A DNA stretch of 64,000 bases from Flavobacteriales bacterium (GTDB lineage: Bacteria > Bacteroidota > Bacteroidia > UBA10329). A program made the translations under genes and the position numbers. Below, in pieces: positions 49,973-64,000 of the stretch. The stretch lies in NCBI GenBank assembly GCA_021739695.1, contig JAIPBM010000025.1, positions 1 to 64,000 of the forward strand. Direction: 5' to 3'. The stretch's first letter is position 1. Each line of letters opens with the position of its first letter. Below the pieces are notes generated by a model. The model worked only from the letters and a program-made list of their open reading frames with translations. It did no database searches and was not told the origin of the DNA.

Positions 49973-50071
49973 TCAAGCTGCGCGGATCACATCCGACATG
50001 CCTGTCCTGAGCCTGTCGAAGGGCTCAGTGCAAGGCCTGCGGAAGATCTGTACTAACCCAACAAGGAAATT
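49973..50071. repeat. Intergenic dispersed repeat (CCTGAGCCTGTCGAAGG family)
   Basis: ACATGCCTGTCCTGAGCC continuing into TGTCGAAGGGCTCAG at about 49995-50030 forms an inverted CTGAGCC/GGCTCAG structure. Close copies lie at 53158-53235 and 54540-54612, and the core is also inside hsdS (61458-61479). It separates the adenylate cyclase gene and the Cys-rich lipoprotein gene. Confidence 0.7.
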
Positions 50072-51139
50072 CTATTGAAAATGAACCGCTGTACATTGAC
50101 CAGCATAAATTGTCACCGTACGTGAGACACTATAGGGCGAAGGGGTAATTCCATCCAGACCTGTTAGAAAATAAATGATGCCGTTGATCTGGTATGTGCC
50201 GGGATATAATTCTCCAGTGAAACAATAGGTAGAATTGCATGCTGGTTCAGATGTGTAATGACCTCCATATATAGTGCCTGTCAGACCCATTACCGACATA
50301 TTCATAGCATTGTAGCCATTAGGAAATCCGTATTCTGACACACTTGTCCACGCCACAAACTTTCCTTTAACAGCTGCGTTACAGTTGCTTTCGCAAGCCG
50401 ATAAGGTGGAATAACTTGCCCCAGAACTAACATAAACGCAACTGCCACCCGAGCAGGTATAACCAGCACTGCCTCCGCCTGAACATGCGCTTTGACACTG
50501 CGATAAGCTGGAATAGGTGGCCCCACTGCTTACATATGTACAATTTCCGCCCGAACATACATAGCCTGATCCGCCTTGGCCATTGGACCCTAGCACTACC
50601 GTGGCAGACGAACATGCCGCATCAGCCGCTTCGCAAGTGGAGTAACACAGGCCAGTCTCTGAACAGTGATACGGATAATCTACAGGACAACAGGCCGTGG
50701 TTGAAACAGGGACATACCCTTGCTGGCTACAAGTTCCTCCACCCGACCATACATCATACGAACAAGAGCTTGCACAGCTGTTGTAGCAATCGGAATAGCT
50801 AAGGTAATCTGCATTGGACGATACGGAAACGCAGGAGCCCGATACACATGTATAGCCAGATCCTCCGCAGCTATTGTAGCAATCGGAATAGGTAAGGTAA
50901 TCTGCATTGGACGATACGGAAACGCATGAGCCCGATACACAGGAATAGCCCGGTCCTGCGGCTGTTTCGTATTGACAGGCATCGCCATAGTATCCGTCAA
51001 AACATTCGCATTCGCCATTACGACAAGTTCCATTACCGCAGTCCATATCAAGACAACGGAAACATGATGACATCAGAAACATGGAAAGAAACACAAGGAC
51101 GTGCGAAGTAGCTCTTCGAAAGGAGGTGGTTGGTAGCAT
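50072..51139 (-). CDS. Cys-rich repeat lipoprotein with EGF-like motif
   Basis: 355 residues; lipobox FLMSSC. An EGF-like stretch (CGNGTCRNGECECFDGYYGDAC) is followed by four Cys-containing repeats with the pattern GYxCxxGxCxxVSSxAxYxxxxxCxxxC, interrupted by another Cys-rich segment (about 120-185). The first two repeats are nearly identical at the DNA level (93-bp period). The C-terminal 90 residues form a beta-sandwich-like domain. It is probably a disulfide-rich surface protein; its function is unknown. Confidence 0.72.
   Translation of the reverse strand: MLPTTSFRRATSHVLVFLSMFLMSSCFRCLDMDCGNGTCRNGECECFDGYYGDACQYETAAGPGYSCVSGSCVSVSSNADYLTYSDCYNSCGGSGYTCVSGSCVSVSSNADYLSYSDCYNSCASSCSYDVWSGGGTCSQQGYVPVSTTACCPVDYPYHCSETGLCYSTCEAADAACSSATVVLGSNGQGGSGYVCSGGNCTYVSSGATYSSLSQCQSACSGGGSAGYTCSGGSCVYVSSGASYSTLSACESNCNAAVKGKFVAWTSVSEYGFPNGYNAMNMSVMGLTGTIYGGHYTSEPACNSTYCFTGELYPGTYQINGIIYFLTGLDGITPSPYSVSRTVTIYAGQCTAVHFQ
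50781..50946. repeat. 93-bp in-gene tandem duplication
   Basis: TTGTAGCAATCGGAATAG starts at 50781 and again at 50874 (93 bp, 31 codons). The 70 or so bases after each are almost identical. The in-frame duplication adds one Cys-rich repeat to the lipoprotein at 50072-51139 and appears recent. Confidence 0.8.
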
Positions 51140-51296
51140 GGGGGTGGCGATGGGAACAACTTGGATGCAGAACGTTCAGCATGCAGTTGAGTGCAGGAAA
51201 AGTATGCAAATTCCGTACAATTTTCAGATAATATTCACTGAACCCTAAGAGGAAACTGCAGCGCCATGTTTTGGAAAATATACGATGGTCGTGAGC

Positions 51297-51581
51297 TTAA
51301 TTATACCCACTATCAAAAGCTTCTTCTTTGATGCTCCAACCTTTGGCCTTGGCATTGGCCATGGCTTTCTTTAGCTGTGCCTCTGTTTCTTGGAGGGTAC
51401 CATACATAGGAAGCAGATCGATAAAGTCGGTTACATAGCCTACGGCACTGTAGCGCACATTGCTTTCCAGTAGTTTTAGAAAGAACTGCTCATCATCGCT
51501 ATCATCGCGCCAGAACCAAAGCACCTTAAAGCCTTGGTTGGCCAAGCGGAACACATAGATCTTGCCGGGTATCACTTCCAT
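51297..51581 (-). CDS. Hypothetical 94-residue protein
   Basis: 94 residues, soluble, not recognised. It contains an N-terminal beta strand run (VIPGKIYVFRLANQGFKVLWFWRDD) and a C-terminal helix (TLQETEAQLKKAMANAKAKGWSI). A terminator-containing repeat module (51601-51690) lies directly upstream. Confidence 0.5.
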   Translation of the reverse strand: MEVIPGKIYVFRLANQGFKVLWFWRDDSDDEQFFLKLLESNVRYSAVGYVTDFIDLLPMYGTLQETEAQLKKAMANAKAKGWSIKEEAFDSGYN

Positions 51582-51600
51582 ACTTCAAATGTAGAAGATA

Positions 51601-51690
51601 GGAGTTAGGAGTTAGGCCTTCGGTTTTAGCTGTTTGCTGTACAAAAAGAAACCCCCACTCGTTTGCTATGCTAACGAGTGGGGGCAACTT
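51601..51690 (-). terminator. Repeat module 1 with terminator hairpin
   Basis: CCCCCACTCGTT (51652-51663) pairs perfectly with AACGAGTGGGGG (51673-51684). On the minus strand it is followed by TTTCTTTTT, a rho-independent terminator for the gene at 51729-52127. The flank GCTGTTTGCTGTACAAAAAG (plus sense) and a GGAGTTA heptad run next to it recur at 52245-52351 and 55680-55774. Confidence 0.8.
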
Positions 51691-51728
51691 AAATGTAGCG
51701 CTCAGTTATTGACTGCAGGTACTTGGTT

Positions 51729-52127
51729 TCAGAGTTTTTTAATCTGACCTTCTGATACCCACTTGGACTTGAAGAGGGTATTGTCGTACTTAATATGATA
51801 CTTATTCTCTCCTACTTCAATTACGGTTGCTGGTTCAGGCACCATTCCGTATTCCACTTCTACGCGGTCGCCAATCTGGTATTTACCTGTAGCAGCAGGT
51901 GAGGCAGGCTGCTCCAGCAATTTAATACGGTCTTTCTCCACCCATTCGTCCCAACCTTCGCCATAGTCGGCATAGCTTACAAAGTACTTGCCTCCCTCTA
52001 TTTTCTTGATGGAACCTGCATACCACGTACCACTGCTTTCAATTTCAATTTTCTCCCCTACCCGTTGGGCAGAAACAGAAATAGCAGTAATTATTAAAAG
52101 AAGAAGTGTCAATTGAAGTGTTCTCAT
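51729..52127 (-). CDS. Exported protein with two Tudor/Agenet-like domains
   Basis: 132 residues: signal peptide (LLLIITAISVSAQ), then two SH3-like barrels of the Tudor-knot/Agenet type. The first reads VGEKIEIESSGTWYAGSIKKIEGGKYFVSYADYGEGWDEWV; the second reads IGDRVEVEYGMVPEPATVIEVGENKYHIKYDNTLFKSKWV. In bacteria such modules are of unknown ligand, often on the cell surface. It is flanked by repeat modules on both sides. Confidence 0.68.
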   Translation of the reverse strand: MRTLQLTLLLLIITAISVSAQRVGEKIEIESSGTWYAGSIKKIEGGKYFVSYADYGEGWDEWVEKDRIKLLEQPASPAATGKYQIGDRVEVEYGMVPEPATVIEVGENKYHIKYDNTLFKSKWVSEGQIKKL

Positions 52128-52516
52128 TGCTTTTAGATAGATGGTTTAACAAAAATTAGTGCTACCCAAATATCAATATTGATGCCAGATGAAAGCACAC
52201 TTGAAAAGAAATTTAACATAGCAATCGGAAATAAATGAGCTGCTAGGTGCTAGGAGTTAGGAGTTAGGAGTTAGGAGTTAGGCATTAGCTTTTAGCTGTT
52301 TGCTGTACAAAAAGAAAACCCCTGCTCGCTAATTGTGATCACGAACAGGGGCAACTTCTAACTTGTCTTATCTCTTCTATAACGCTGGTGCTTTGCGTTT
52401 ATTGTAAGAGCACCACCTTCCCTTCCCTACGACAAGCTCATGTTCAATTACACATGATGGGTCATGGAATGTGTCTTTGATTACAGATAGAACGGGGGCT
52501 CATGTGCCAGTCTTGC
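52128..52516. repeat. Gene-free stretch with repeat module 2 and terminator
   Basis: The segment 52245-52351 contains tandem GGAGTTA heptads (52255-52285), the conserved GCTGTTTGCTGTACAAAAAG flank, and a hairpin CCCCTG/CAGGGG (52319-52324 and 52346-52351). On the minus strand the hairpin is followed by TTTTCTTTTT, a terminator for the gene at 52517-53017. The remaining bases show no gene. Confidence 0.75.
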
Positions 52517-53017
52517 TTACTTTATCCAACCGCGTTTACGGGCCATCACCAATCGTTTTTTGGCATCGTCCACGTTGGTCAAATGTCTGTTGGCTATGCG
52601 CAGCATATCATTAACCGTGCTAAGCAAGTAGCTCACAGCGTAGGGGTAATCTGCCACACGTTGGATGTGCCAAGTGGTCATGTTAGGCTCCATGCCTACG
52701 GGAGCCCGTAGCACCTTGAGCGAAGCCTTACAATAGCGTTCTTCATGGGCACGAAAACGCTTTAGTTTCTTGTCTATGAGGATGAGTTTATTTTTGGCAA
52801 GCCGTGTAGGTTTTAATATACCGTACCCATACCATTTTTGGCTGTCCTCGTCCAAGGTGGACAGGTACTTCTCTGTCCGCTTCACTTTATTCTTTGCCGA
52901 AGCATAACTCTTTTTGAAGGCAGCAAAGTTGATGCTGGCTTGTTCATGTCGTTGTAGCGCGGCTTCTAGGGCAGGAATCAGTTGGGGCCAAACGCGTGGG
53001 TAACCTGTAGTATCCAT
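52517..53017 (-). CDS. Hypothetical helical protein
   Basis: 166 residues from the ATG at 53017 (the longer frame begins with a TTG and lacks merit). It is very Lys/Arg/Ala-rich and helical (LIPALEAALQRHEQASINFAAFKKSYASAKNKVKRTEKYL, KNKLILIDKKLKRFRAHEE). It is not recognised. Within it LRAPVGMEPN is encoded by a small palindrome (CTACGGG/CCCGTAG, about 52697-52712), which may be another inserted repeat. Confidence 0.5.
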   Translation of the reverse strand: MDTTGYPRVWPQLIPALEAALQRHEQASINFAAFKKSYASAKNKVKRTEKYLSTLDEDSQKWYGYGILKPTRLAKNKLILIDKKLKRFRAHEERYCKASLKVLRAPVGMEPNMTTWHIQRVADYPYAVSYLLSTVNDMLRIANRHLTNVDDAKKRLVMARKRGWIK

Positions 53018-53059
53018 GGGGTTGGGGTTTGTATAGCTAAGATAAAAGGTTTTCAACAA

Positions 53060-53544
53060 ATTACCAACTCTACTTGAGGATGCAAGAACAGCGGTCTCTC
53101 TGCCGCAGGCGGAAACTTAGCGAAGCGGTCTCACCAGAGGTGAACTGATCGTGTTTCATTCCACAAGAGTCATCACATTCGACATGCCTGTCCTGAGCCT
53201 GTAGAAGGGCTCCGTGCATCATCACCAGCGGAAGACTTGGGCGCAATGTCATTAAGTTAAGCCGTTTGAGAGATTGCTTCGTTCCTCGCAATGACGCTCG
53301 GAGCATCGTCATTGCGAGGGAGGAACGACCGAAGCAATCTCTATTCAACATGGCTGATCTCTTAACTTAATGACATTGGATTCGCGCGGGCGTGGGGAGC
53401 TCCCTAAATCCCCCAAAGGGGGACCGAGGTGCGTTGAGGAAGGGATAAGGGGATAAGTGATAAGGGATAAGAGATAAGGGATAAGAGATAAGGGATAAGG
53501 GATAAGGGATAAGAGATAAGAGACGGGAGAAAATGGACGGGGGT
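53060..53544. repeat. Composite repeat island
   Basis: No gene in nearly 500 bp. In order: one and a half units of the 34-bp repeat found at 55972 (53083-53150); the CCTGAGCCTGTCGAAGG-type element with one change (53158-53235); a nested inverted repeat whose outer arms CAATGTCATTAAGTTAAG (53244-53261) and its complement (53361-53378) enclose inner arms 53268-53295 and 53308-53341; a CCCCCAAAGGGGG element (53390-53440, second copy 54425-54478); and a 9-bp tandem array GGGATAAGA (about 53443-53525). Confidence 0.8.
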
Positions 53545-54330
53545 TCAGTTTTTTGGAAAGAAATTCAGCGAGGTCCAAGCGCCTGCGTGGAGCCATGATT
53601 TAAGCTCACCCTGATATTGCCTGACTTCGTTCTTGGATTCGGGTGACACGATGAAATGATAAGGAAAGCGCCAAATACGACTTACTTCATAGAGCGTACT
53701 TACGTGAAGCTCGTTGAGCAGTGATCTAACTCGAATGGAAATCGGCACAGGAACACTATCGATAAGAATGGCAGAACTGATCAGTTCCAACTGTTGCTCT
53801 GAGCAGATGATCGGTTCTTCCAGCACGTTGCCCGCATTACGGGCATTCAGGATATGTTCCTGCACGTATTGCAGCTGGCTGCGTTTGTAAGGTGCAAGGT
53901 CGGATTGCCTGTTCAAGATGCGGTTTTCGTAGGTCACATGTGAAATGAACAGGACGTCTTGGAGGGATGCTACGCGTTCCACGGTGAAAAGATGGCGCAA
54001 CGATTCGGGCACTGATAAGCTATTTGGATCAATCAACTTGAAGCATGCACTTACAGGTCTGTTCGGTTCGTAAATGATGTCTCGTATATCGATGAGTCCC
54101 TTTTCGGCAGCGATCTTCACATAGACGTCAATATCCTGTATCAGACTTTTTTGAAGTTCGTGGAATTCGGTCAGGGTCTTAGCTCCTACATTCCTTTGGT
54201 ACATAATGTACATTGAAGGATGATTGATGAGGTCGTTGACCGTTTTGTGCCCCAGTCGACCAATGCTATTCAAAAAACGCGTGGATACGAATTCATTGAT
54301 GACCGATAATGGTATGTCGTAGGGGCTCAT
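53545..54330 (-). CDS. Hypothetical protein with RpoA-CTD-like helical modules
   Basis: 261 residues from the ATG at 54330. The N-terminal PLSVINEFVSTRFLNSIGRLGHKTVNDLINHPSMYIMYQRNVGAKTLTEF, in outline, resembles the RNA polymerase alpha C-terminal (HhH-like) domain: helix, STR, IxRLGxxTVxDL, RNVGxKTLxE. A weaker version may recur at the C-terminus (VRSLLNELHVSTLYEV). Such domains contact UP-element DNA or activators. The function is unknown, and it sits alone between repeat islands. Confidence 0.55.
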   Translation of the reverse strand: MSPYDIPLSVINEFVSTRFLNSIGRLGHKTVNDLINHPSMYIMYQRNVGAKTLTEFHELQKSLIQDIDVYVKIAAEKGLIDIRDIIYEPNRPVSACFKLIDPNSLSVPESLRHLFTVERVASLQDVLFISHVTYENRILNRQSDLAPYKRSQLQYVQEHILNARNAGNVLEEPIICSEQQLELISSAILIDSVPVPISIRVRSLLNELHVSTLYEVSRIWRFPYHFIVSPESKNEVRQYQGELKSWLHAGAWTSLNFFPKN

Positions 54331-54345
54331 GGTACGGCAACTCAA

Positions 54346-54638
54346 AACTAGAATGAAGGTAATAAAAGCTCAGATCATTAGCGAGGGAATCAGGTTTTCA
54401 GCTCCCCATGGGCATTTACCTTCTGCGCGTGGGGAGCCCCCTAGATCCCCCAAAGGGGGACCAAGCTGCGTTGAGTAGGCGATGGCAGAGACCTCGGAGG
54501 TCTATCTGTCTATCGGGACGGGATGATCGTGTCTAGCTCCACAAGAGTCATCACATTCGACATACCTGTCCTGAGCCTGTCGAAGGGCTCAGTGCATCAC
54601 CTGCGGAAGACTCGCTAGTGATGGATTGAATCACTCAA
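54346..54638. repeat. Repeat island
   Basis: About 290 bp without a gene. It carries a CCCCCAAAGGGGG-type element (54425-54478) and the CACATTCGACAT...CCTGAGCCTGTCGAAGG...GGAAGACTCG composite (54540-54612) also found at 49983 and 53158. The order of elements is the reverse of that in the 53-kb island. Confidence 0.72.
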
Positions 54639-55109
54639 CTATTTTCTCCTCTTTTTCTTATTCCAGTACCCTTGCCACGGGTCGAATGGTGGCTTCATCT
54701 CCTTATCACTGAGCAATGGTAAGTCATTTGTATTAAGGACTTCCTCCACCTCCTTTTTCGTCATACCAAATGATTTAGCGAGGTCTTTGACTGGCACACC
54801 TTTTAGATAGGCGTCTATGATTTTATCCTGAATGCTTTTCAATGGCATTTTGCTTCGAGACTTGCTTACATCACCAACTGCGTTTTTTACATTTTCGATT
54901 CCGAGAAAGACTGCCGCATCTAAAAGCACTGGCAACAGTTGCTCCACTAATGACGCATTCAGCACCAATTTGCTTTGCTTAGGGGCATTCGGAAAATTAT
55001 CAATGCTTTGCAATAATCGTACATAGAGACGTCCGTCTCTACTCATTACATCCGAAACAATGGTGGATTTGCCCGATTCAATCAAGGCGCTATGAAGTAT
55101 CTGGTCCAT
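54639..55109 (-). CDS. Hypothetical protein with a helix-turn-helix-like segment
   Basis: 156 residues, not recognised. The middle contains PLKSIQDKIIDAYLKGVPVKDLAKSFGMTKKEVEEVL (about 92-128), in outline a resolvase/sigma-like HTH. The N-terminus is helical (MDQILHSALIESGKSTIVSDVMS) and the C-terminus is basic and aromatic (FDPWQGYWNKKKRRK). It could be a DNA-binding regulator. It has no partner genes and is flanked by repeats. Confidence 0.5.
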   Translation of the reverse strand: MDQILHSALIESGKSTIVSDVMSRDGRLYVRLLQSIDNFPNAPKQSKLVLNASLVEQLLPVLLDAAVFLGIENVKNAVGDVSKSRSKMPLKSIQDKIIDAYLKGVPVKDLAKSFGMTKKEVEEVLNTNDLPLLSDKEMKPPFDPWQGYWNKKKRRK

Positions 55110-55276
55110 GAGCTCAAGGATTTGATACTCACTAAACTAATCAAAATCCTTAAAACTAACACCTAGTACCTAGAACCTAAGACCTAGTACCTCCTCAAAA
55201 AACTTTAGCTCCATTTAGTTTAGCTCTTAGCGGCACCGGTTAGGCGAAAGGCTAAAGCCACACAGGCTTAGCTGGT

Positions 55277-55669
55277 TTAGTGGTTTTCCTTCAGGCAACC
55301 TGTTTTAGCGTGGGTGTGTTCGTATACCCAACTAAAGGGGTCGTAATCAATGGAGCGCCATTGGCCTCTACGATATTCAAAACCATAGCGATGCACGCCT
55401 TTAGTGCCTTTAAAGTTGAGCAGTAGCCTGTCTTTGGTTTTTGGTTGCAGGTCTACATCAAAGGTTTCGGGTTTATTGAGAAGCTGGGTGAGCACGCTTA
55501 GATTGAGCTTCTCTTGCGCTGGGTCTATGGGTGGCGGGCCAGCCATGGTGCCTATGATGAATTCCGCTTTACCTAGCACATGCGGGTGGAACTCCCAGGT
55601 ATCGCCTAGGGCTTTCTGCTCTTTATGCGAACAGCTACAGAGTTTAAGTGTGGCGGAGGGTTGGCACAT
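55277..55669 (-). CDS. Hypothetical 130-residue protein
   Basis: 130 residues, no signal peptide, not recognised. An early Cys/His-rich stretch (LKLCSCSHKEQKALGDTWEFHPH) could bind metal. The rest is basic with a beta-like end (GVHRYGFEYRRGQWRSIDYDPFSWVYEH). A terminator-type repeat module is 10 bp upstream of its start (55680 onward). The 150 bp downstream hold short imperfect CCTAGTACCT repeats. Confidence 0.5.
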   Translation of the reverse strand: MCQPSATLKLCSCSHKEQKALGDTWEFHPHVLGKAEFIIGTMAGPPPIDPAQEKLNLSVLTQLLNKPETFDVDLQPKTKDRLLLNFKGTKGVHRYGFEYRRGQWRSIDYDPFSWVYEHTHAKTGCLKENH

Positions 55670-56195
55670 GAAAATTAGGTGTTAGCTATTAGGAGTTAGG
55701 AGTTAGGCATTAGCTTTTAGCTGTTTGCTGTACAAAAAGAAAACCCCTGCTGCTAAATGAATAACAGACAGGGGCACTCTTCTAACCGAAGGGTAGGACA
55801 GGCTAATCAAAGATAAAAAAATGTTTTTGAAAATTGCAAATGCGCCTGTGTGGCATGCTGTTCTACCTCGTTGTTCGGAGGCGCAGAGATGTCTAGACCT
55901 ATTCGATTTTGGAAACCTCGTACATCCCTTTCAAGGGCATTTTTTGGTTTTATCTAAAGATCAGTTCGGAACTTAGCGAAGCGGTCTCTCTGCCGCAGGC
56001 GGAAACTTAGCGAAGCGGTCTCTCTGCCGAAGGCGGAAACTTAGCGAAGCGATATCTCTGCCGCAGGCGGAAACTTAGCGAAGCGATATCTTTGCCGCAG
56101 GCGGAAACTTAGCGAAGCGGTCTCACCAGAGGTGAACTGATCGTATTTTAACCAAACAAGTGACCCTTCGGAACACTTGCTCGGGCGGGGATTCA
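55670..56195. repeat. Gene-free stretch with repeat module 3 and 34-bp tandem array
   Basis: Module 3 (55680-55774) has GGAGTTA heptads, the GCTGTTTGCTGTACAAAAAG flank and a hairpin CCCCTG/CAGGGG (55744-55749 and 55769-55774). On the minus strand the hairpin is followed by TTTTCTTTTT and can terminate the hsdR operon transcript. From 55972 a 34-bp unit starting CTTAGCGAAGCG repeats at 55972, 56006, 56040, 56074 and 56108. A solitary partial copy is at 53093-53150. Confidence 0.8.
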
Positions 56196-59153
56196 TCATG
56201 CAGTCATTCCCTTCACGAACACCTCCACAAACTCCTTCATCCTTTCGATGATGCGCTCACCGATGGAACGCGCCTGTAAGATGCTTGGCCGTTGTTCCAA
56301 GCAAGCGAACACCTGTTCTTTCAGGGGTTCCTGACCGCTGAAGATGTAGGTCTCGATGAGGTTGCTGAACTGCTGTCTGTCCAGGTTCTCCTCTTGGCAG
56401 ATGTCATTGAGGGCAAGCACCTTCTGGTCTTCCCAATACTTTTTGAACTCATCTTCAATGCTGTCCAAGTCTGAGATGTGGGGCAGCATCTCGTCAATGA
56501 ACTTTTCGATGAGGTCGCGCTTGCTACGCAGCTCCACCTCGCCTTTCAGCATGTCGAGTATCTGCTTCTTCTGCCGCTCCTTTTCCGTTTTATCATCCGT
56601 CTTCTTCTGCTGTGCCAGCAGTTTGAGGATGTAGGCCACATTCACCTCATCGCGGTGCAGGAGTTCCACCTCAAAATCCACATCATTCAAGATGGAGACC
56701 TTCTCTTTGCTGTGTTTCACACTTTCGCGGATGTCCTGATACTTGCTTGAATAGTCCGCGAAGGCCTGTTCGCTCATCGGCAGGTCGTCCCATGTGAATT
56801 CGGTATAGGTCTTCAACACATTGCGCAGGCGTATGAGCTCGCGGAATGCCTGTACGAACTGTAGTATCTCCTCCTCGCTTTCGAGGTTGTTCACGCTCTT
56901 CACCGTTGGGGCTATCTTCAACAGCTCGGCAAATGCCTTGCTGAAGCCTTCCACCATCTTCTCATATTCGGGCAGGAAGATGACCTCCTTGGCTTCCTTG
57001 TTCGAAAAGAGGGCGATGGCCTCGTCCGTAGCCGATTTCAGGTTGCGGTAGCACAGGATATTCCCCTGCGACTTCTGCTCGTTCAGTATGCGGTTGGTGC
57101 GCGAATAGGCCTGTATCAACCCATGATGTTTCAGGTTCTTGTCCACATACAGGGTATTGAGTTTCTTGGCATCAAAGCCTGTGAGGAACATGTTCACCAC
57201 CAGCAGAATGTCCAAGCGGTCGCTGTCGGGGAAGTTGGCCTTCTCGCGGTTCTTCATCCGCTGGCTCAGGTCTTGGAAATAGCGCTCGTAGCCCGTGTCG
57301 CTCTTCATGTCCAGTTTGACCCCGAACATCGCGTTGTAATCATCCACAAAGGCGAAGAGCTTGTCGCGGCTGTGGGTGGACACATATTCCCCGGCCGCTT
57401 CACGGGCCATGGTCACATCATCAGGCAGCGCGCCCCTGTCCACATCATCCTCCTCGTTGGCGCCATAGCTGAAGATGGTGGCCACGCGCAGGTCGTGTTG
57501 GCCCGCTTCCTTCTTGGCCTTGAAGATGTCGTAGTAGCGGATAAGGTTCGGGATGCTGCTCACCGCGAACATGGCCGAATAGGCGCGGTTGTGGGTCTTC
57601 TGGTCGTGGTACTGGATGATGTGATCCACCACCTTCTCCATCCGCTCGTCCGATTCGAGCACCTCCTTGGTGTCGATGTCCTCCACCTTGGTGTCCTCGG
57701 TGATCTCGCCTTTGCGTTTCACGGTGCGGTAATACTCCACATGGAACCGCAGCACGTTCTGGTCGCGGATGGCATCGGTGATCACATACTTGTGCAGGCA
57801 GGTCTGGAACAGGTCTTTGGTGGTGCGCTTGCCCAGCTCGTTGCTCATGGCATTGTCGGCAAAGATGGGCGTGCCCGTGAAGCCGAAAAGCTGATGGTTC
57901 TTGAAGTATTGGGCAATGCGCCTGTGCGTGTCCCCAAACTGGCTGCGGTGGCACTCATCGAATATGAACACCACCCGCTCGTTCTGCAAGTGGCTGATGC
58001 TCTTCTCGTAATGCCCTTTGCTGATGGCGTTGTTCAGCTTCTGAATGGTGGTGACAATGAGCTTGGTCTCGTCCTTGAACTGATTGACCAGCCCCGTGGT
58101 GTTGGCCGTGATGTCCACACTTCCCTTCTTGAAGTTGTTGAACTCCTCCATGGTCTGGAAGTCGAGGTCCTTGCGGTCCACTACGAACACCACCTTCTTT
58201 ATCTCCGGCAGCTTGGTCAGTATCTGGCTGGCCTTGAAACTGGTGAGCGTCTTGCCGCTGCCCGTGGTGTGCCAGATGTAGCCGTTGTTTTCTACCGAAC
58301 CCTGAGGTTCTCGAAGGGTGGAGTTGGAAAGGTCAGCGCTGGCCTGCCCCGTGTCTTCGAGAGCCTCAGACACCCCTTCCCACGCCTTAACCCGTTTGAC
58401 AATCGCCTCCACGGCATACACCTGATAGGGTCGTAGCACCATCAGCATCTTGTGCGTCTCGTTGAGCACGATGTACTGCGAGAGCATGGTGCTGAGGAAT
58501 GTTGGTTTCAAGAAACTGTTGGCAAAGGGCTCCAGATCGGTGATGTTGCGGTTGCTGACATCCGCCCAGAAGAAGGTCTGCTTGAAGGTGAGCGCCTTGA
58601 TGGTGTTGTTGGCGTAGTACTTTGTGTTGACGCCATTGCTAATGACGAACAACTGCACGAACTGGAACAGCCCTCTGTCCGTCCAAAAGCTACTCTGCTT
58701 GTAGCGGTCTATCTGGTTGAAGGCCTCCTTCAGCTCAATGCCTCTGCGCTTGAGCTCTATCTGCACCAAGGGTAGGCCATTGACCAATAGCGTCACATCA
58801 TAGCGGTTCTTGTGTACGCCCTCAACGGTGATCTGATTGGTGACCTGAAACAGGTTCTTCTCCGGCTCTGCGGGGTTGAAGAAGCGGATGTAGCGCACTT
58901 CCTCATCATCGGTGTGCAGCTCGAAGCGGTCGCGAAGCAGCTTGGCGCGTTCAAACACATTGCCTTTGCCCAAGTGGTTGAGGATGCTCTCAAACTCCCG
59001 CTCCGAAAACTTCAATCCATTGAAAGCCTCCAACTGGCATTGGAGGTTGACCAACATGGCTGCCTCGTCATTGATGCGCACAGGCGCATAGCCCAAGCCC
59101 ACCAGTTGCTGGATAAGGTTGTTTTCGAGTATGGCTTCGGATTGGGTGGTCAA
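56196..59153 (-). CDS. hsdR: Type I restriction enzyme R subunit
   Basis: 985 residues. An N-terminal PD-(D/E)XK nuclease (Asp119, then QIELK with Glu133 and Lys135) is followed by a superfamily 2 translocase: Walker A HTTGSGKT (295-302), DECH box (399-402), and FTGTP. The start appears to be TTG, 4 bp after the preceding stop. Between the nuclease and Walker A, residues of about 258-289 (with STLREPQGSVEN) are encoded by two palindromic repeats and look inserted. The complex with HsdM and HsdS would cut unmethylated DNA after translocation. The middle third is visibly more GC-rich than most of the window. Confidence 0.92.
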   Translation of the reverse strand: MTTQSEAILENNLIQQLVGLGYAPVRINDEAAMLVNLQCQLEAFNGLKFSEREFESILNHLGKGNVFERAKLLRDRFELHTDDEEVRYIRFFNPAEPEKNLFQVTNQITVEGVHKNRYDVTLLVNGLPLVQIELKRRGIELKEAFNQIDRYKQSSFWTDRGLFQFVQLFVISNGVNTKYYANNTIKALTFKQTFFWADVSNRNITDLEPFANSFLKPTFLSTMLSQYIVLNETHKMLMVLRPYQVYAVEAIVKRVKAWEGVSEALEDTGQASADLSNSTLREPQGSVENNGYIWHTTGSGKTLTSFKASQILTKLPEIKKVVFVVDRKDLDFQTMEEFNNFKKGSVDITANTTGLVNQFKDETKLIVTTIQKLNNAISKGHYEKSISHLQNERVVFIFDECHRSQFGDTHRRIAQYFKNHQLFGFTGTPIFADNAMSNELGKRTTKDLFQTCLHKYVITDAIRDQNVLRFHVEYYRTVKRKGEITEDTKVEDIDTKEVLESDERMEKVVDHIIQYHDQKTHNRAYSAMFAVSSIPNLIRYYDIFKAKKEAGQHDLRVATIFSYGANEEDDVDRGALPDDVTMAREAAGEYVSTHSRDKLFAFVDDYNAMFGVKLDMKSDTGYERYFQDLSQRMKNREKANFPDSDRLDILLVVNMFLTGFDAKKLNTLYVDKNLKHHGLIQAYSRTNRILNEQKSQGNILCYRNLKSATDEAIALFSNKEAKEVIFLPEYEKMVEGFSKAFAELLKIAPTVKSVNNLESEEEILQFVQAFRELIRLRNVLKTYTEFTWDDLPMSEQAFADYSSKYQDIRESVKHSKEKVSILNDVDFEVELLHRDEVNVAYILKLLAQQKKTDDKTEKERQKKQILDMLKGEVELRSKRDLIEKFIDEMLPHISDLDSIEDEFKKYWEDQKVLALNDICQEENLDRQQFSNLIETYIFSGQEPLKEQVFACLEQRPSILQARSIGERIIERMKEFVEVFVKGMTA

Positions 59154-59157
59154 ATGC

Positions 59158-60153
59158 TCAGATATTTAATATTGACTTGTATCTGGATGAGATGTACTCC
59201 CAGTAATCGTGCATTTTCGGGTCGCTGAGAATTATCTTCTTGTCAAAGAAGTCTTCGGTATAGACGGGAATAAACTTATCAGGGTCGGTTTGAAGGTTCT
59301 TCCAAACATGGGTGGCAGAATCTCCCAAATGACTCAATTCTTTGCTTGTGATTCTTTGAAAGTCGGTGTTCGCCTGAGGCGATAGGTGCATCAGATACAC
59401 TTTATCCGCTCCAAATTCTTTTGCCAACTCCATTTCATGGGCCAGAAACTGCTGACGGGTAAACTGATAGAATGGCTCAAAGAACAGACTGTCAAATGAA
59501 GGCACTTTGGCTTTGTCAATTGGGCAAGGCTCCTTCTCCCACAAGTGGGAATAGATGGTGGTTCTATCCGTACCGTTTTTTGAGATCTTATAGGAAGTGC
59601 TACCATACGACTCGCAGTATTTCCATTCAATAAGGACAATGATCCTTTTCCCCGAAGCGGTCTCGAACATCACCGCTCCATCAACACTCGTAAAATTGGC
59701 GCCTCTGGTTCGTTCGGCCTTGCCTTTGGTCTTTTCTCCCAAATAGTTCTCAAGTCCGATCCATTCCAATGCAATGATGGAGTCGGCATCCATGGGAACC
59801 GTGTTTCGGATGTCAGGGAAATAGCGCTGAAACAATTTGACCAGCACCGACTCCGAGATGTTCAATGACATCAGAAGATTCACACAACAGACCTGCGAAT
59901 CGCACAGGTGAGAGCTTGGCTTATCTTCAATATGGTCGTGCCATTTTATCTTGTGCGCTTTGAAGTAATCAATGGCACTGTCCCGAATGGGGGCAAACAG
60001 GTTCTGGTCGGAATTCTCGAGCGGCAAACAAAAAGGATACGGTCTTTCTGGAGCATAATAGCCCTGACCTTTTGCCTGTTCCGTCAAATGCCCTGTCAGA
60101 AGCTTCCAATTGGCCTGCTCTTTTTTCTGTTGCTCCAAAAACTTTCCCATCAT
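59158..60153 (-). CDS. PGN_0703-like putative restriction endonuclease
   Basis: 331 residues resembling the PGN_0703 family of putative restriction nucleases. A PD-(D/E)XK core can be read: FTSVDGAVMF (metal Asp) followed by RIIVLIEWKY (Glu and Lys). Other family-like segments are LCDSQVCCVNLL, IALEWIG and a C-terminal VYLMHLSP. It starts with a 4-base overlap with the preceding nuclease gene and ends 4 bp before hsdR, so it belongs to the hsd operon as an extra nuclease. Confidence 0.72.
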   Translation of the reverse strand: MMGKFLEQQKKEQANWKLLTGHLTEQAKGQGYYAPERPYPFCLPLENSDQNLFAPIRDSAIDYFKAHKIKWHDHIEDKPSSHLCDSQVCCVNLLMSLNISESVLVKLFQRYFPDIRNTVPMDADSIIALEWIGLENYLGEKTKGKAERTRGANFTSVDGAVMFETASGKRIIVLIEWKYCESYGSTSYKISKNGTDRTTIYSHLWEKEPCPIDKAKVPSFDSLFFEPFYQFTRQQFLAHEMELAKEFGADKVYLMHLSPQANTDFQRITSKELSHLGDSATHVWKNLQTDPDKFIPVYTEDFFDKKIILSDPKMHDYWEYISSRYKSILNI

Positions 60154-60845
60154 ATCATCTGCTTAAATTGAATACTGCCCTGTTCATCATAGTCTATCAC
60201 TCGTAGCCCGTTCTCCACCTTTTCCAGATAACAGACCTCTCTCCACTCCTTTCTGATCTTTCTGACCTGCTTGAAGGAGGCATTCCATACGACCATTCCT
60301 GTAGCTTGGCCTGTCCATTTCCTGTCTGTCAGCGCTGAAACAAGCTCCATGAAGAACTTCTGATTGTTCTCGATCACGTTCAGGAAGTTGTCCACCTGGC
60401 GCTCAATTCGCTTCAGGTCTCTGGAAGACTTCAATTCCACGACAACCAGATTCCCTTCTTCGTCCAAGGCCAAAAGGTCATTCACTACCCGCTTCCCATT
60501 CTCAGTAATCGCCAATTCCGAGGTCAGCAGGTGCAGTTTCCTATCGAAGAACAATCGGTGACCATTTGACAGTGCATCATAGATCAACCACGCCTGCAAT
60601 TCTTTTTCCCGTGTTTCGCGTCCCTTGGTGAATTTGTGTTTGCCATTCACCACGTCTTTCATTTTTTGAATGGCAGCTCGCTCTGTTCTGATTCCACTTA
60701 TGCCTATCTCTGGCGTTTTCGCGTCCAATGAGATCAAGGATAGGGAATGGCGGTTGCCTCTGAAATGGATCTTGTGCTTCATCAACGTGGCATGATGCTC
60801 AGTATTGAGATCATGCGCCAGTTTTATGTACTTCAATTCTTTCAT
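60150..60845 (-). CDS. PD-(D/E)XK (NucS-like) nuclease
   Basis: 231 residues from the ATG at 60845, 1 nt after the hsdS stop. A PD-(D/E)XK signature is clear: VVNDLLALDEEGNLVVVELK with Asp, then Glu and Lys, as in NucS/RecB-type endonucleases, followed by a conserved Gln-containing helix (RIERQVDNFL). The N-terminal 100 residues are helical and basic. The gene lies between hsdS and the PGN_0703-like gene, so it is probably expressed with the restriction system. Confidence 0.72.
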   Translation of the reverse strand: MKELKYIKLAHDLNTEHHATLMKHKIHFRGNRHSLSLISLDAKTPEIGISGIRTERAAIQKMKDVVNGKHKFTKGRETREKELQAWLIYDALSNGHRLFFDRKLHLLTSELAITENGKRVVNDLLALDEEGNLVVVELKSSRDLKRIERQVDNFLNVIENNQKFFMELVSALTDRKWTGQATGMVVWNASFKQVRKIRKEWREVCYLEKVENGLRVIDYDEQGSIQFKQMI

Positions 60846-60846
60846 C

Positions 60847-62118
60847 TCAAACAAACATCTCTTGCAGCAGCCCTTTCTTAAACTGCTGGGTCAATTCTAT
60901 CTGTGCGCTTACCGCATCTATCTTCTCATCCAAACTGCTCAGGAAGCTGGCTATCTTTTGTTGCTCTTCGAGACAAGGTAGTTTCATCTTGAAGGTTTTG
61001 TATTCCTCCGCATTTATCCCAGGTTGACCAGAACGCATTGACATTACTCTAACCCATTTATCATATTTATACGAGAGCGTTTGATAGTAGATGAATGACG
61101 CGTTCGCCTTTTTGACCCTAAATCGGATTAGGAAACCAGCAAAATATACTATGCCATCGTTAGGGTGATACAAGTAGCTTTTTCCTACGCTTGCACCTGT
61201 CCTTGCAAATAGTAAATCACCTTCTTTTAGAAGATAGTTTTCGGAAAGTTCTCCTTCAGGCGATGTGACGCTTGACTTATCGAACTTTCTGGAATTCTCG
61301 TCAATATCAGTTATTCTCAGATATTGATTTTTTCCATCAAATTCCTTTGATGCTGCATTTAGGCCATACCCGATATTTCCACAAACATCCCCCAACCTCT
61401 TCTCCTCCCAATCCTCATAATCACTCCCATCTTCTCTTTTGAACCGCAGTTCTGGAGCCTGTCCTGAGCCTGTCGAAGGAAACAACTTTTGCATCACCCC
61501 TTTCTTGTACTGCTGTAGCAGTTCCTTTTTGCGGTTGAGGTGCTGTAGCTTCTCATCTACCGCACTCAGAAACCCCGCAATCTTTTGTTGCTCGGGAAGG
61601 GTGGGTATGAAAACCGTGACCGCTTCTAAGCTTTCTTGCCCAATGTTGTATCGGGTACTACCGCCACTTCGAGTAGTGATTTCCTTCCTAGCCTGATCGG
61701 TTTTCAACATCCCGTTCATAAACGAGGGGTCATATTCCTTCTTACCTCTTCCTCGAATTACAAATCCTCCAAATACGGCCGTTTTATCCCGATCCAAATA
61801 AACATTGGATTGACCGACTTCCTCCCTTGTTTCAGAACTCCTCTGGAAAAGGATGTCTCCATATCGAACTTCATTCTTCTCGACTTCCTTATCCGAAAGT
61901 TCCACTTCCCCTAAAATCACATCATGCGTAATGAAGTCATTCTGAATAATATCCAGAACATTAATGAATTTGTACCCACTGCCGTATTGTTCCTTAGCTG
62001 CATTTACTCCGTTCTTGAAGGTTAGCAAATCACCCAACAGCTGTTGAGACCACCCATCCTCAAACCCCCGAAACCTCAGCTTCGGCACTTTCAACTTCTT
62101 CTGTTCCGCTACTTCCAT
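60847..62118 (-). CDS. hsdS: Type I restriction enzyme S (specificity) subunit
   Basis: 423 residues with two target-recognition domains, each followed by a conserved helical region (TLPEQQKIAGFLSAVDEKL and CLEEQQKIASFLSSLDEKI), which sets the two-part recognition site. At the junction (about residue 213) the motif PSTGSGQAPELR is encoded by a CCTGAGCCTGTCGAAGG repeat (61458-61479), identical in core to intergenic copies. It sits exactly between the first helical spacer and the second TRD, where length changes alter the spacing of the recognised sequence. Confidence 0.92.
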   Translation of the reverse strand: MEVAEQKKLKVPKLRFRGFEDGWSQQLLGDLLTFKNGVNAAKEQYGSGYKFINVLDIIQNDFITHDVILGEVELSDKEVEKNEVRYGDILFQRSSETREEVGQSNVYLDRDKTAVFGGFVIRGRGKKEYDPSFMNGMLKTDQARKEITTRSGGSTRYNIGQESLEAVTVFIPTLPEQQKIAGFLSAVDEKLQHLNRKKELLQQYKKGVMQKLFPSTGSGQAPELRFKREDGSDYEDWEEKRLGDVCGNIGYGLNAASKEFDGKNQYLRITDIDENSRKFDKSSVTSPEGELSENYLLKEGDLLFARTGASVGKSYLYHPNDGIVYFAGFLIRFRVKKANASFIYYQTLSYKYDKWVRVMSMRSGQPGINAEEYKTFKMKLPCLEEQQKIASFLSSLDEKIDAVSAQIELTQQFKKGLLQEMFV

Positions 62119-62190
62119 TGTCTTGAACTATGATAGGTGTGATGGGCTATGAAGGACTATGATAAACGGTAAAGGAGAGCTCATGATTGA

Positions 62191-62586
62191 TCAGGATGTT
62201 TTCGGTGCTGGTTTCATAACGCGTTTAAATTGCAGGCGGGTATTGCCGAAGTTGATCAGCAACCCTATCTGCATATCGTATGCTTCGAGGTAGTTGATGG
62301 CCTGTGCCAGGTGTACATCCTCCAATTCTTTAATGGCCTTTATCTCAAGCATGATGGTGTCATCCACAAAGAAATCGACCCTGCGGGTACCGATGTCGTG
62401 ACCTTTGTAGCTCAATGGCATTTCCATTTCGCGTTGGTGGGGCAATCCTTGCATGTTCATTTCGATGGACAGTGCGCGCTGATACACCACTTCCTGAAAA
62501 CCATTGCCCAACTGCTTGTGCACTTCCATGGCGCAACCAATGATCCTGCCCGTCAACTCGCTATGTTCATACTTCTCATTTATCAT
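62191..62586 (-). CDS. GxxExxY protein
   Basis: 131 residues of the small GxxExxY family: GCAMEVHKQLGNGFQEVVY with G-F-Q-E-V-V-Y giving the name motif, then VDFFVDDTIMLEIKAIKEL, which resembles a PD-(D/E)XK core (Asp...Glu-x-Lys), and LLINFGNTRLQFKR. The function of the family is not established; a nuclease-like fold is inferred. The gene lies between hsdM and hsdS in the same direction. Confidence 0.85.
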   Translation of the reverse strand: MINEKYEHSELTGRIIGCAMEVHKQLGNGFQEVVYQRALSIEMNMQGLPHQREMEMPLSYKGHDIGTRRVDFFVDDTIMLEIKAIKELEDVHLAQAINYLEAYDMQIGLLINFGNTRLQFKRVMKPAPKTS

Positions 62587-62654
62587 CTCCTAAAAATCAT
62601 ATTCCACCATTCATCATAGTCCATCATAGTATCTCATTTCATCATAGTTCAAGA

Positions 62655-64000
62655 CTATACTGGCGCCTCAATCCCCAACTCCTCACAATACCTCGCAATA
62701 GTGGCATCGGTGCTTTTCAGGGCTTCGGCCACTTGCCTCAGTTCGGTGCTTATGGCCTGTAGGTCAATGGCGGCCTCTTCCTCAAAGGTGTCCACATAGC
62801 GCGGTATGTTCAGGTTGTAGTCGTTGTCGCGCACTTCTTCGAGGGTAGCGATGTAGGCGTATTTTTCTTCTAACACTTGAGATTCTTCGCTGCGCTCAGA
62901 ATGACAATAGGAAGCATAGGTATCGGTTATCTTGGCAATGTCCGCTAGCCGCAGCTTGTTCTGGGTCTTCACCTTCTCGTAGTGCTGGCTGGCATCTATA
63001 AAGAGGATGTTGTTGCTTCTATCAGCGCCCTTCGATACGATTCCTTCGGAATCACTCAGGGTGACGCGCTGAGAACGGTTCTTTTTCAGCACGAGGATGC
63101 AGGTGGGTATGCTGGTGCCAAAGAAGATGTTGGCAGGCAGGCCTATCACGGCATCGAGGTAATTGCGGTCGTCTATCAGAAACTGGCGGATGTGGCCTTC
63201 GGCCCCACCACGGAACAGCACACCATGGGGCAGCACGCAGGCCATGGTGCCATCGTCTGCCAACTGGTGCACCATGTGCTGCACAAAGGCAAAATCGGCC
63301 TTGCTGCCGGGGGCCAACCGCCCGTAGGCCGCAAAGCGCGGGCTGTTCATGTGCAAAGGGTTGGCGCTCCACTGTGCCGAAAATGGCGGGTTGGCCACCA
63401 CGGCCTCGAAGCGTTCTTCCACGTGCTGTGGGCGTTCGAGCGTGTCCTCGTTCTTGATGTCGAACTTGCGGTAATGCACGTTGTGCATGATCATGTTCAT
63501 GCGTGCCAAGTTGTAGGTGGTGGGGTTGCTCTCCTGCCCATAGAACTTACCCGCATCCAGCACTTCCTTCGCCACGCGCAAGAGCAGCGAACCACTGCCA
63601 CAGGTGGGGTCGTACACGCTTTTGAGGCGTTTCTTGCCAGTGGTGACCAGCTTGGCCAATACGGTGCTCACCTCCTGCGGGGTGTAGAACTCGCCCGCCT
63701 TTTTGCCCGCTCCGCTGGCAAACTGCCCAATGAGGTATTCGTAGGCATCGCCCAGCACATCGGTCTCGCTGTTGTCTATCTGAAAGTCGATCTGGTTGAG
63801 ATGCACGAGCACTTTCACGATCAGTGCGTTCTTGTCGTCCGTGGTCTTGCCCAGCTTGCTGCTGGTGAGGTCGAGGTCTTCAAAGAGGTTCTGAAAGTCC
63901 TCTTCGCTCTCGGTGCCTACGGTGCTGTTGGTGATGTTGTTGAGCACCGTTTTGAGGTCTTCGAGAATGAAGTTCTCCTCGCCTTCGCCACCGCTCCTGC
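62655..64000 (-). CDS. hsdM: Type I restriction enzyme M (methylase) subunit, 5' partial
   Basis: The reading frame is open to the right edge (GGEGEENFILEDLKTVL), so the N-terminus is outside the window. SAM-binding motif PTCGSGSLLLR and catalytic NPPF (VVANPPFSAQW) identify an N6-adenine methylase that protects host DNA and forms the core with HsdS. Two segments look inserted and repeat-derived: RVTLSDSEGIVSKGADRSN (near 63028-63065) and CHSERSEESQ (near 62878-62906). The gene is markedly GC-rich compared with the window. It is the first gene of the operon visible here. Confidence 0.92.
   Translation of the reverse strand, partial: RSGGEGEENFILEDLKTVLNNITNSTVGTESEEDFQNLFEDLDLTSSKLGKTTDDKNALIVKVLVHLNQIDFQIDNSETDVLGDAYEYLIGQFASGAGKKAGEFYTPQEVSTVLAKLVTTGKKRLKSVYDPTCGSGSLLLRVAKEVLDAGKFYGQESNPTTYNLARMNMIMHNVHYRKFDIKNEDTLERPQHVEERFEAVVANPPFSAQWSANPLHMNSPRFAAYGRLAPGSKADFAFVQHMVHQLADDGTMACVLPHGVLFRGGAEGHIRQFLIDDRNYLDAVIGLPANIFFGTSIPTCILVLKKNRSQRVTLSDSEGIVSKGADRSNNILFIDASQHYEKVKTQNKLRLADIAKITDTYASYCHSERSEESQVLEEKYAYIATLEEVRDNDYNLNIPRYVDTFEEEAAIDLQAISTELRQVAEALKSTDATIARYCEELGIEAPV

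Follow-up and report, generated by a model that had tools for sequence, protein, structure and literature searches.

Probable in-frame insertion of CGTC-type REPs and their kin into loops of a type I restriction-modification operon

The final 8 kb of the window, that is, of the whole 64-kb stretch of DNA analysed here, encode a type I restriction-modification operon. Its genes lie on the minus strand in the order hsdR, two further genes, hsdS, a PDDEXK_3 gene and hsdM. The Pfam domains EcoR124_C, N6_Mtase and Methylase_S are present, and HsdR, HsdM and HsdS have intact motifs, the catalytic ones included, which identifies the operon as a type I system. Its genes, repeat-bearing segments and related intergenic copies are:

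50000..50022, minus strand: intergenic copy, identical to the hsdS 23-mer
53186..53208, minus strand: intergenic copy, 96% to the hsdS 23-mer
54564..54586, minus strand: intergenic copy, 96% to the hsdS 23-mer
56196..59153, minus strand: hsdR, 985 aa, motifs TTGSGKT, DECHRS and GFTGTP intact
58293..58376, minus strand: extra segment of HsdR, about 29 residues above the common form
58299-58319, minus strand: palindrome ACCCTGAGGTTCTCGAAGGGT in hsdR
58351-58373, minus strand: palindrome GTGTCTTCGAGAGCCTCAGACAC (GTGTC..GACAC) in hsdR, in opposite orientation to the palindrome at 58299
59158-60153: extra gene within the operon, REase-ARP/PDDEXK_13 protein
60150-60854: extra gene within the operon, 234-aa protein with no Pfam match
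60847..62118, minus strand: hsdS, 423 aa
61457-61479, minus strand: GCCTGTCCTGAGCCTGTCGAAGG, read as PSTGSGQ from hsdS residue 214 on, just before the second recognition domain
62191-62586: PDDEXK_3 protein, between hsdS and hsdM
62655..64000, minus strand: hsdM, running beyond the window to contig position 64289, 544 aa
62878..62906, minus strand: slot 2 of HsdM, CGTC-type REP read as CHSERSEES, from residue 365 on
63027..63062, minus strand: slot 1 of HsdM, TLSDSEGIVSKG element, VTLS from residue 312

Upstream of hsdM, at contig positions 64935-65348 (L002), lies a tandem-repeat ORF of HKLSDGQ units that is open on both strands.

The initial annotation of this DNA had described palindromes in frame within hsdR, hsdS and hsdM, and both the sequence and the reading frames, all of which are open through the four repeat-bearing segments, confirm them. 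Its count of four events in one operon agrees with the four inserted segments, while a recount gives five elements, which have a common core of TGAG, a loop and then CGAA, between complementary arms. A position mostly at domain borders had also been claimed. This applies to hsdS, where the segment comes after the stretch that separates the two recognition domains, but not to hsdM, whose two segments both lie inside the N6_Mtase match (residues 78-408), nor to hsdR, whose segment sits between helix 242-257 and strand 291-295, ahead of the Walker A motif at 296. The related intergenic copies stand at the three positions given above, while the repeats at 13-190 belong to a related GTCATTGCGAGGNACGAAGCAATCT-type family, present at 21 places in the genome, which contains no hsd element. 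Dispersed and tandem repeats abound at 50000-56130; among them are a 34-base unit at 55980-56148, GGGATAAG-type units at 53436-53547 and a 76-base repeat family at 51585, 52251 and 55676.

The two hsdR palindromes encode about residues 260-287. A comparable segment is present in none of 63 HsdR homologues, in which the loop length varies by up to approximately 8 residues. In the AlphaFold model (mean pLDDT 73.0, 35 sequences) pLDDT falls below 50 at 260-287, between ordered elements, and the segment models as a low-confidence loop. A 19-base core of the first palindrome, CCCTGAGGTTCTCGAAGGG, occurs at 5 places in the genome, and the second (58351) is matched by itself and by 3 places with 3 mismatches, against 3 in the control, so nothing exceeds chance.

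Both hsdM segments are missing from the two solved relatives compared, 3lkd and the EcoR124 M protein. The AlphaFold model of HsdM (a 447-residue fragment, 40 sequences; mean pLDDT 76.9) has pLDDT below 50 at 312-325, between ordered elements, and in slot 2 at 369-371 only. Modelling to see whether the inserts are loops, a check proposed in the initial annotation, thus gives low-confidence loops for slot 1 and for HsdR, and partly so for slot 2. The slot-1 element is single copy in the genome in its 34-base form, and is one of 25 genome matches to CCCTGAG-N4..22-TCGAAGGG (control 0). The CHSERSEES core is exact in hsdM only, with one other genome place at 3 mismatches (control 0), and the idea of a genome full of the slot-2 repeat is accordingly rejected. 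Alignment with homologues, a check named in the initial annotation, shows that most have no such segments; those of hsdM and hsdR are thus extra relative to most homologues, made of repeat DNA and kept in frame.

Across the draft genome of 4.24 Mb, the 17-base core of the hsdS element occurs at 6 places (control 0). Of 99 HsdS proteins, 71 fitted the search expression, and in 67 of these the second recognition domain is preceded by a linker of 3 residues; the window's protein, one of the 71, has 10. Linkers of 9 residues occur in L048 and L139, and one of 24 in L094. The hsdS segment is repeat-derived DNA, but its net gain in length is uncertain because the 9-residue linkers of L048 and L139 lack obvious repeat DNA. 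For the same reason, and because some long HsdM slot-2 segments also lack repeat DNA, part of the linker or slot length may predate the repeat or may be decayed repeat.

The main new result concerns the two HsdM slots across homologues. The set was gathered by similarity to the window's HsdM (136 loci of at least 400 bits, minus 2 exact duplicates, plus the window, giving 135 distinct proteins), and its rate is not valid for all HsdM. Slot 1 has a common short length in 120 and slot 2 in 115 of the 135, while repeat-derived segments, drawn from at least 6 different repeats, occupy one or both slots in 13; every carrier falls in the window's larger HsdM clade. Fillers of slot 1 are HSELVSES (L042), VTLSAVEG with HSELVSES (L195), CHAERSRS (L117), SHAERSRS (L199) and AST[PT]LSDR (L200, L202). 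Those of slot 2 are CHSERSEES (the window and L117), CHPEPVEGS (L041, identical to L198), CHPEL[VD]SGS (L206, L207), CHAERSRSESEAS (L196), CHTEHSRS (L195) and SPLExGxRGV (L118, L119, L200). The DNA under these peptides is recognisable repeat DNA and not unrelated sequence, an outcome in line with the initial annotation; AST[PT]LSDR and SPLExGxRGV are taken by us to be repeat-derived on the basis of their DNA and matching repeats. In 7 further HsdM (L046, L048, L116, L121, L122, L197, L202) slot 2 is long and not callable as repeat-derived.

Close relatives can differ completely at these positions. Outside the slots, L117 and L200 share 93.2% identity across 485 residues, with both slots entirely different, and L195 and L204 are 91.4% identical, L195 having its slots filled and L204 both empty. 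On one FastTree tree built without the slot columns, the presence of CGTC-like kinds requires at least 5 changes at slot 1 and at least 6 at slot 2. Other insertions of 6 residues or more within HsdM are few (L076, L094 and a variable N-terminal linker). A distant HsdM from the window's genus (L035) has VIASEAKQS in the loop after slot 2, and relatives 64-70% identical have none. Taken together, the sequences indicate that fixed loops of HsdM are filled by different repeats with fast turnover.

HsdS likewise receives repeats recurrently just before its recognition domains. Preceding the second domain, repeat segments are present in the window, L042 (VIASTQDEAIS) and L040 (VEKSRVVERSRN), and probably in L046, judging by its sequence. 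The more distant HsdS of L026 bears one also, which we take to be an insert from its position and the usual family sequence, the homologue alignment being uninformative; the distant HsdS of L021 is the weakest case and only weakly suggests a repeat segment there. Near the N-terminus, before the first recognition domain, are HCERSEAIS (L042) and ACPERSRR (L041). It is thus established that the hsdM slots and the hsdS junction before the recognition domain hold other repeats in other bacteria.

In-frame insertion is a general process which includes housekeeping genes, and its confinement to hsd genes is rejected, elements being in frame in other genes too. One motif was counted in 15 genomes with a control of 0 throughout, occurring at 8 places in the window's own genome, 24 in G561 and 35 in G781. 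In ten genomes 87 motif places were found, 7 of them in hsdM; 77 of the 80 others were examined, with the 34 others of G781 left out, and 12 of the 77 lie inside long ORFs of genes other than hsdM. Hosts are leucyl-tRNA synthetase (two genomes, different sites), a GluRS-type synthetase, MnmE, a methylmalonyl-CoA mutase fusion, an efflux pump, an aminotransferase and others; the products of L234 and L283 are presumably DUF1343-like and MetRS, respectively, and that of L242 has no Pfam match. By our reading, elements lie in the same loop of TrpF in two genomes (L246, L287). One leucyl-tRNA synthetase (L277:430-3600) holds a DUF559 domain (residues 228-324) besides its repeat element. In a separate sample of 30 loci with the slot-2 element, four were judged in-gene. 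One is the window's hsdM, and two encode proteins that bear a type IX sorting domain, one of which is truncated at a contig end. In the fourth, the terminase large subunit of L173, the element is located exactly between the Terminase_6N and Terminase_6C domains.

Relative to other genes, hsdM is nevertheless strongly over-represented. The motif is found in 7 of 135 hsdM (6 of 134 without the window) versus 12 in an assumed 29,700 genes, an odds ratio of 135 with P 1.6e-12 when 9 x 3,300 genes are assumed and the window is included. In G356, 2 of 3 motif places are in hsdM. The scan of the window's own genome gave 51 rows, some elements appearing under two patterns and contig C52 and two other places being left out; 4 of the 6 in-gene elements judged real belong to the hsd operon, for which P is 1.5e-7 after a factor of 500, on an assumed coding fraction and operon number. 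The same genome has a pair of repeats read in frame in a protein that looks transporter-like (L314), and a repeat near the N-terminus of a protein read as secreted (L299). Candidates at L297, L307 and L308 were discounted, as the element precedes a likely signal peptide, and those at L004 and L298 as unsupported ORFs. A sequence model, R1, returned supported gene matches in hsd only (7), but this is circular, 6 of its 9 rows being the same hsd elements; the sole new match, L042:11470, is in hsdS before the first recognition domain. A loose arm-and-core scan is noisy, with 110 matches versus 43 in the control, 29 of them in other ORFs of 200 or more; five were followed and three kept (L035, L021, L026).

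As we read it, the element is open in three of six frames. All 8 motif elements in hsdM give HSxxxSxS on the sense strand, whereas the 12 in other genes comprise 3 that read HSxxxSxS, 8 that use the reverse frame E[IM]LxxVQxD and 1 otherwise. The hydrophobic VILNLFQN frame is used by 0 of the 20. Such frame use fits a filter for exposed loops, with a counter-example in the L173 terminase, where a related element reads VILSEAKNL.

The operon itself looks horizontally acquired, from its base composition and the distribution of its relatives. Three of its four 2-kb bins have a G+C of 0.50-0.54 and the bin at 60-62 kb has 0.446, against 0.40-0.49 elsewhere. No close HsdM was detected in 8 genomes of the same genus (best E 1.4e-45), several of them 70-83% complete, and relatives up to 76% identical are found in other groups. 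Because of these features, and because the slot-2 element is single in the genome, the operon would have been transferred between hosts, with insertions occurring both before and after.

The reading we consider probable is that CGTC-type REPs and their kin were inserted in frame into loops of this operon. Repeats would land in many places, and hits inside genes would mostly be purged, leaving survivors that are in frame, have a hydrophilic reading and sit in a permissive loop. HsdM would offer two permissive slots, and so be refilled repeatedly. With the operon moving between hosts, its repeats would be partly those of own-genome families (hsdS, the first hsdR palindrome), while the slot-2 repeat of hsdM would seem to come from elsewhere than the present genome. 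The enzyme probably still works, with the added peptides serving as near-neutral linkers. The initial annotation had proposed, by analogy with Rickettsia, that genomic palindromes were inserted in frame, and this proves right in kind on the evidence of homologues, solved relatives, genome counts and models; the retuning of HsdS spacing or HsdR geometry that it raised is not supported. Absent from it were the different repeats held by the same slots in other bacteria, the extension of the process beyond hsd genes and the apparent horizontal acquisition. More tentatively, the HsdM and HsdS linker slots might carry repeats as exchangeable protein-coding cassettes, drawn from each host's repeat pool on the operon's travels and recording past hosts.

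It is possible, if rather unlikely, that the HsdM slots received a repeat on one or a few occasions each and that the resident repeats were then swapped as units by recombination. Such swapping would suit the single orientation and phase of all 8 hsdM motif elements, against 3 of 12 in other genes, and the difference of sister HsdM in both slots, yet the 8, all from a single clade, are not independent of one another, unrelated repeats of the SPLExGxRGV kind are present too, and empty slots occur within the same clades (L204, L208). The uniform orientation favours some swapping, while the empty slots within clades favour insertion. Selection of the inserts for altering HsdS spacing, HsdR geometry or target choice is improbable: strong over-representation in hsdM and recurrence at the same places would agree with it, but like insertions are present in housekeeping genes, the models show low-confidence loops, and slot content turns over and can be absent. 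That ordinary coding sequence merely happens to look palindromic is very hard to credit, given exact genome copies of two elements, reversed-pattern controls of 0 and the lack of the segments in most homologues; chance palindromes are rejected with the exception of the second hsdR palindrome, which has no other copy, and the noise of the loose scan, with 43 control matches beside its 110, is the other point in their favour. Assembly joins at repeats are just as hard to credit, since, despite a draft of 53 contigs with some repeat copies near contig ends (C12:220, C44:192), the frames are open through all four segments and the same pattern occurs in other genomes, including the one-contig assemblies G781, G561 and G516, and in Lacinutrix venerupis DSM 28755.

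If insertion is the process, paired empty and filled slots in proteins otherwise more than 90% identical would capture a new peptide entering a probably working enzyme, making the origin of a linker datable and testable. The slot loops may trace past hosts of travelling restriction systems. In Flavobacteriaceae-like genomes, repeats that generally bear the label extragenic supply coding insertions that stay in frame, also in aminoacyl-tRNA synthetases, and the slot loops provide a natural record of how proteins gain segments.

In terms of known systems, slot 2 of the window's hsdM and the elements of several homologues best match the class of CGTC-tagged REPs. According to the main text on that class, its members are known in frame inside genes, many of them DNA repair genes, Rickettsia RPE-4 and RPE-6 are CGTC REPs, and in two Xanthomonas roughly one and the same recB site is occupied by different REPs (Di Nocera et al., 2013; PMC3733652). 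The tag beside the stem, CGTC, TGTC or CCTC, is common to both, being present in the two window hsdM elements (TGTC, CGTC) and in those of homologues. Members of the class have a stem of 8-9 bp that begins with AT. The HSELVSES-type element of L042 folds with 8 bp and a 5-base loop; in the window, slot 2 has the initial AT, but its pairing requires G.A mismatches, and slot 1 begins with AC, its loop being 20 bases long. When nine elements were aligned, RNAalifold detected no consensus pair. The hsdR elements have the common core without a CGTC tag, and the 58299 palindrome is therefore not classed as a CGTC REP. In-frame genic units are shared as well. The class is without a dedicated transposase; the one family sought here, PF01797, has no match in the window's genome. 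What differs from the CGTC REPs of that text is that two slots of one enzyme family take many repeats, with four segments per operon. No report of such repeats in hsd genes or of slot turnover in type I subunits was found in the literature searched, where the peptide string HSERSEES has no match, and the words "restriction" and "hsd" are both absent from the main text of PMC3733652.

Rickettsia palindromic elements are similar in being palindromes in frame in many unrelated genes (here 12 of 77, several families), but belong to another phylum and have other sequences, while here several repeat kinds occur per gene slot. GTAG REPs with their RAYT are likewise short palindromes that are sometimes in genes, yet the hsd elements have no GTAG tag, and PF01797 (Y1 transposase) is absent from 5 of 8 genomes searched, the window's own included; mobilisation by an own-genome RAYT is rejected on this ground. 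EcoR124-like systems share the three Pfam domains of the operon, and the HsdM model superposes on 3lkd (Z 36.9 over 360 residues, rmsd 3.7) and on EcoR124I 7bto (Z 29.5 over 379 residues, rmsd 5.9), the difference being the repeat-derived loops and the additional genes that separate the hsd genes. That such elements exist and occur in frame within genes is known; what is added here is two slots of one enzyme family with quick turnover among repeats.
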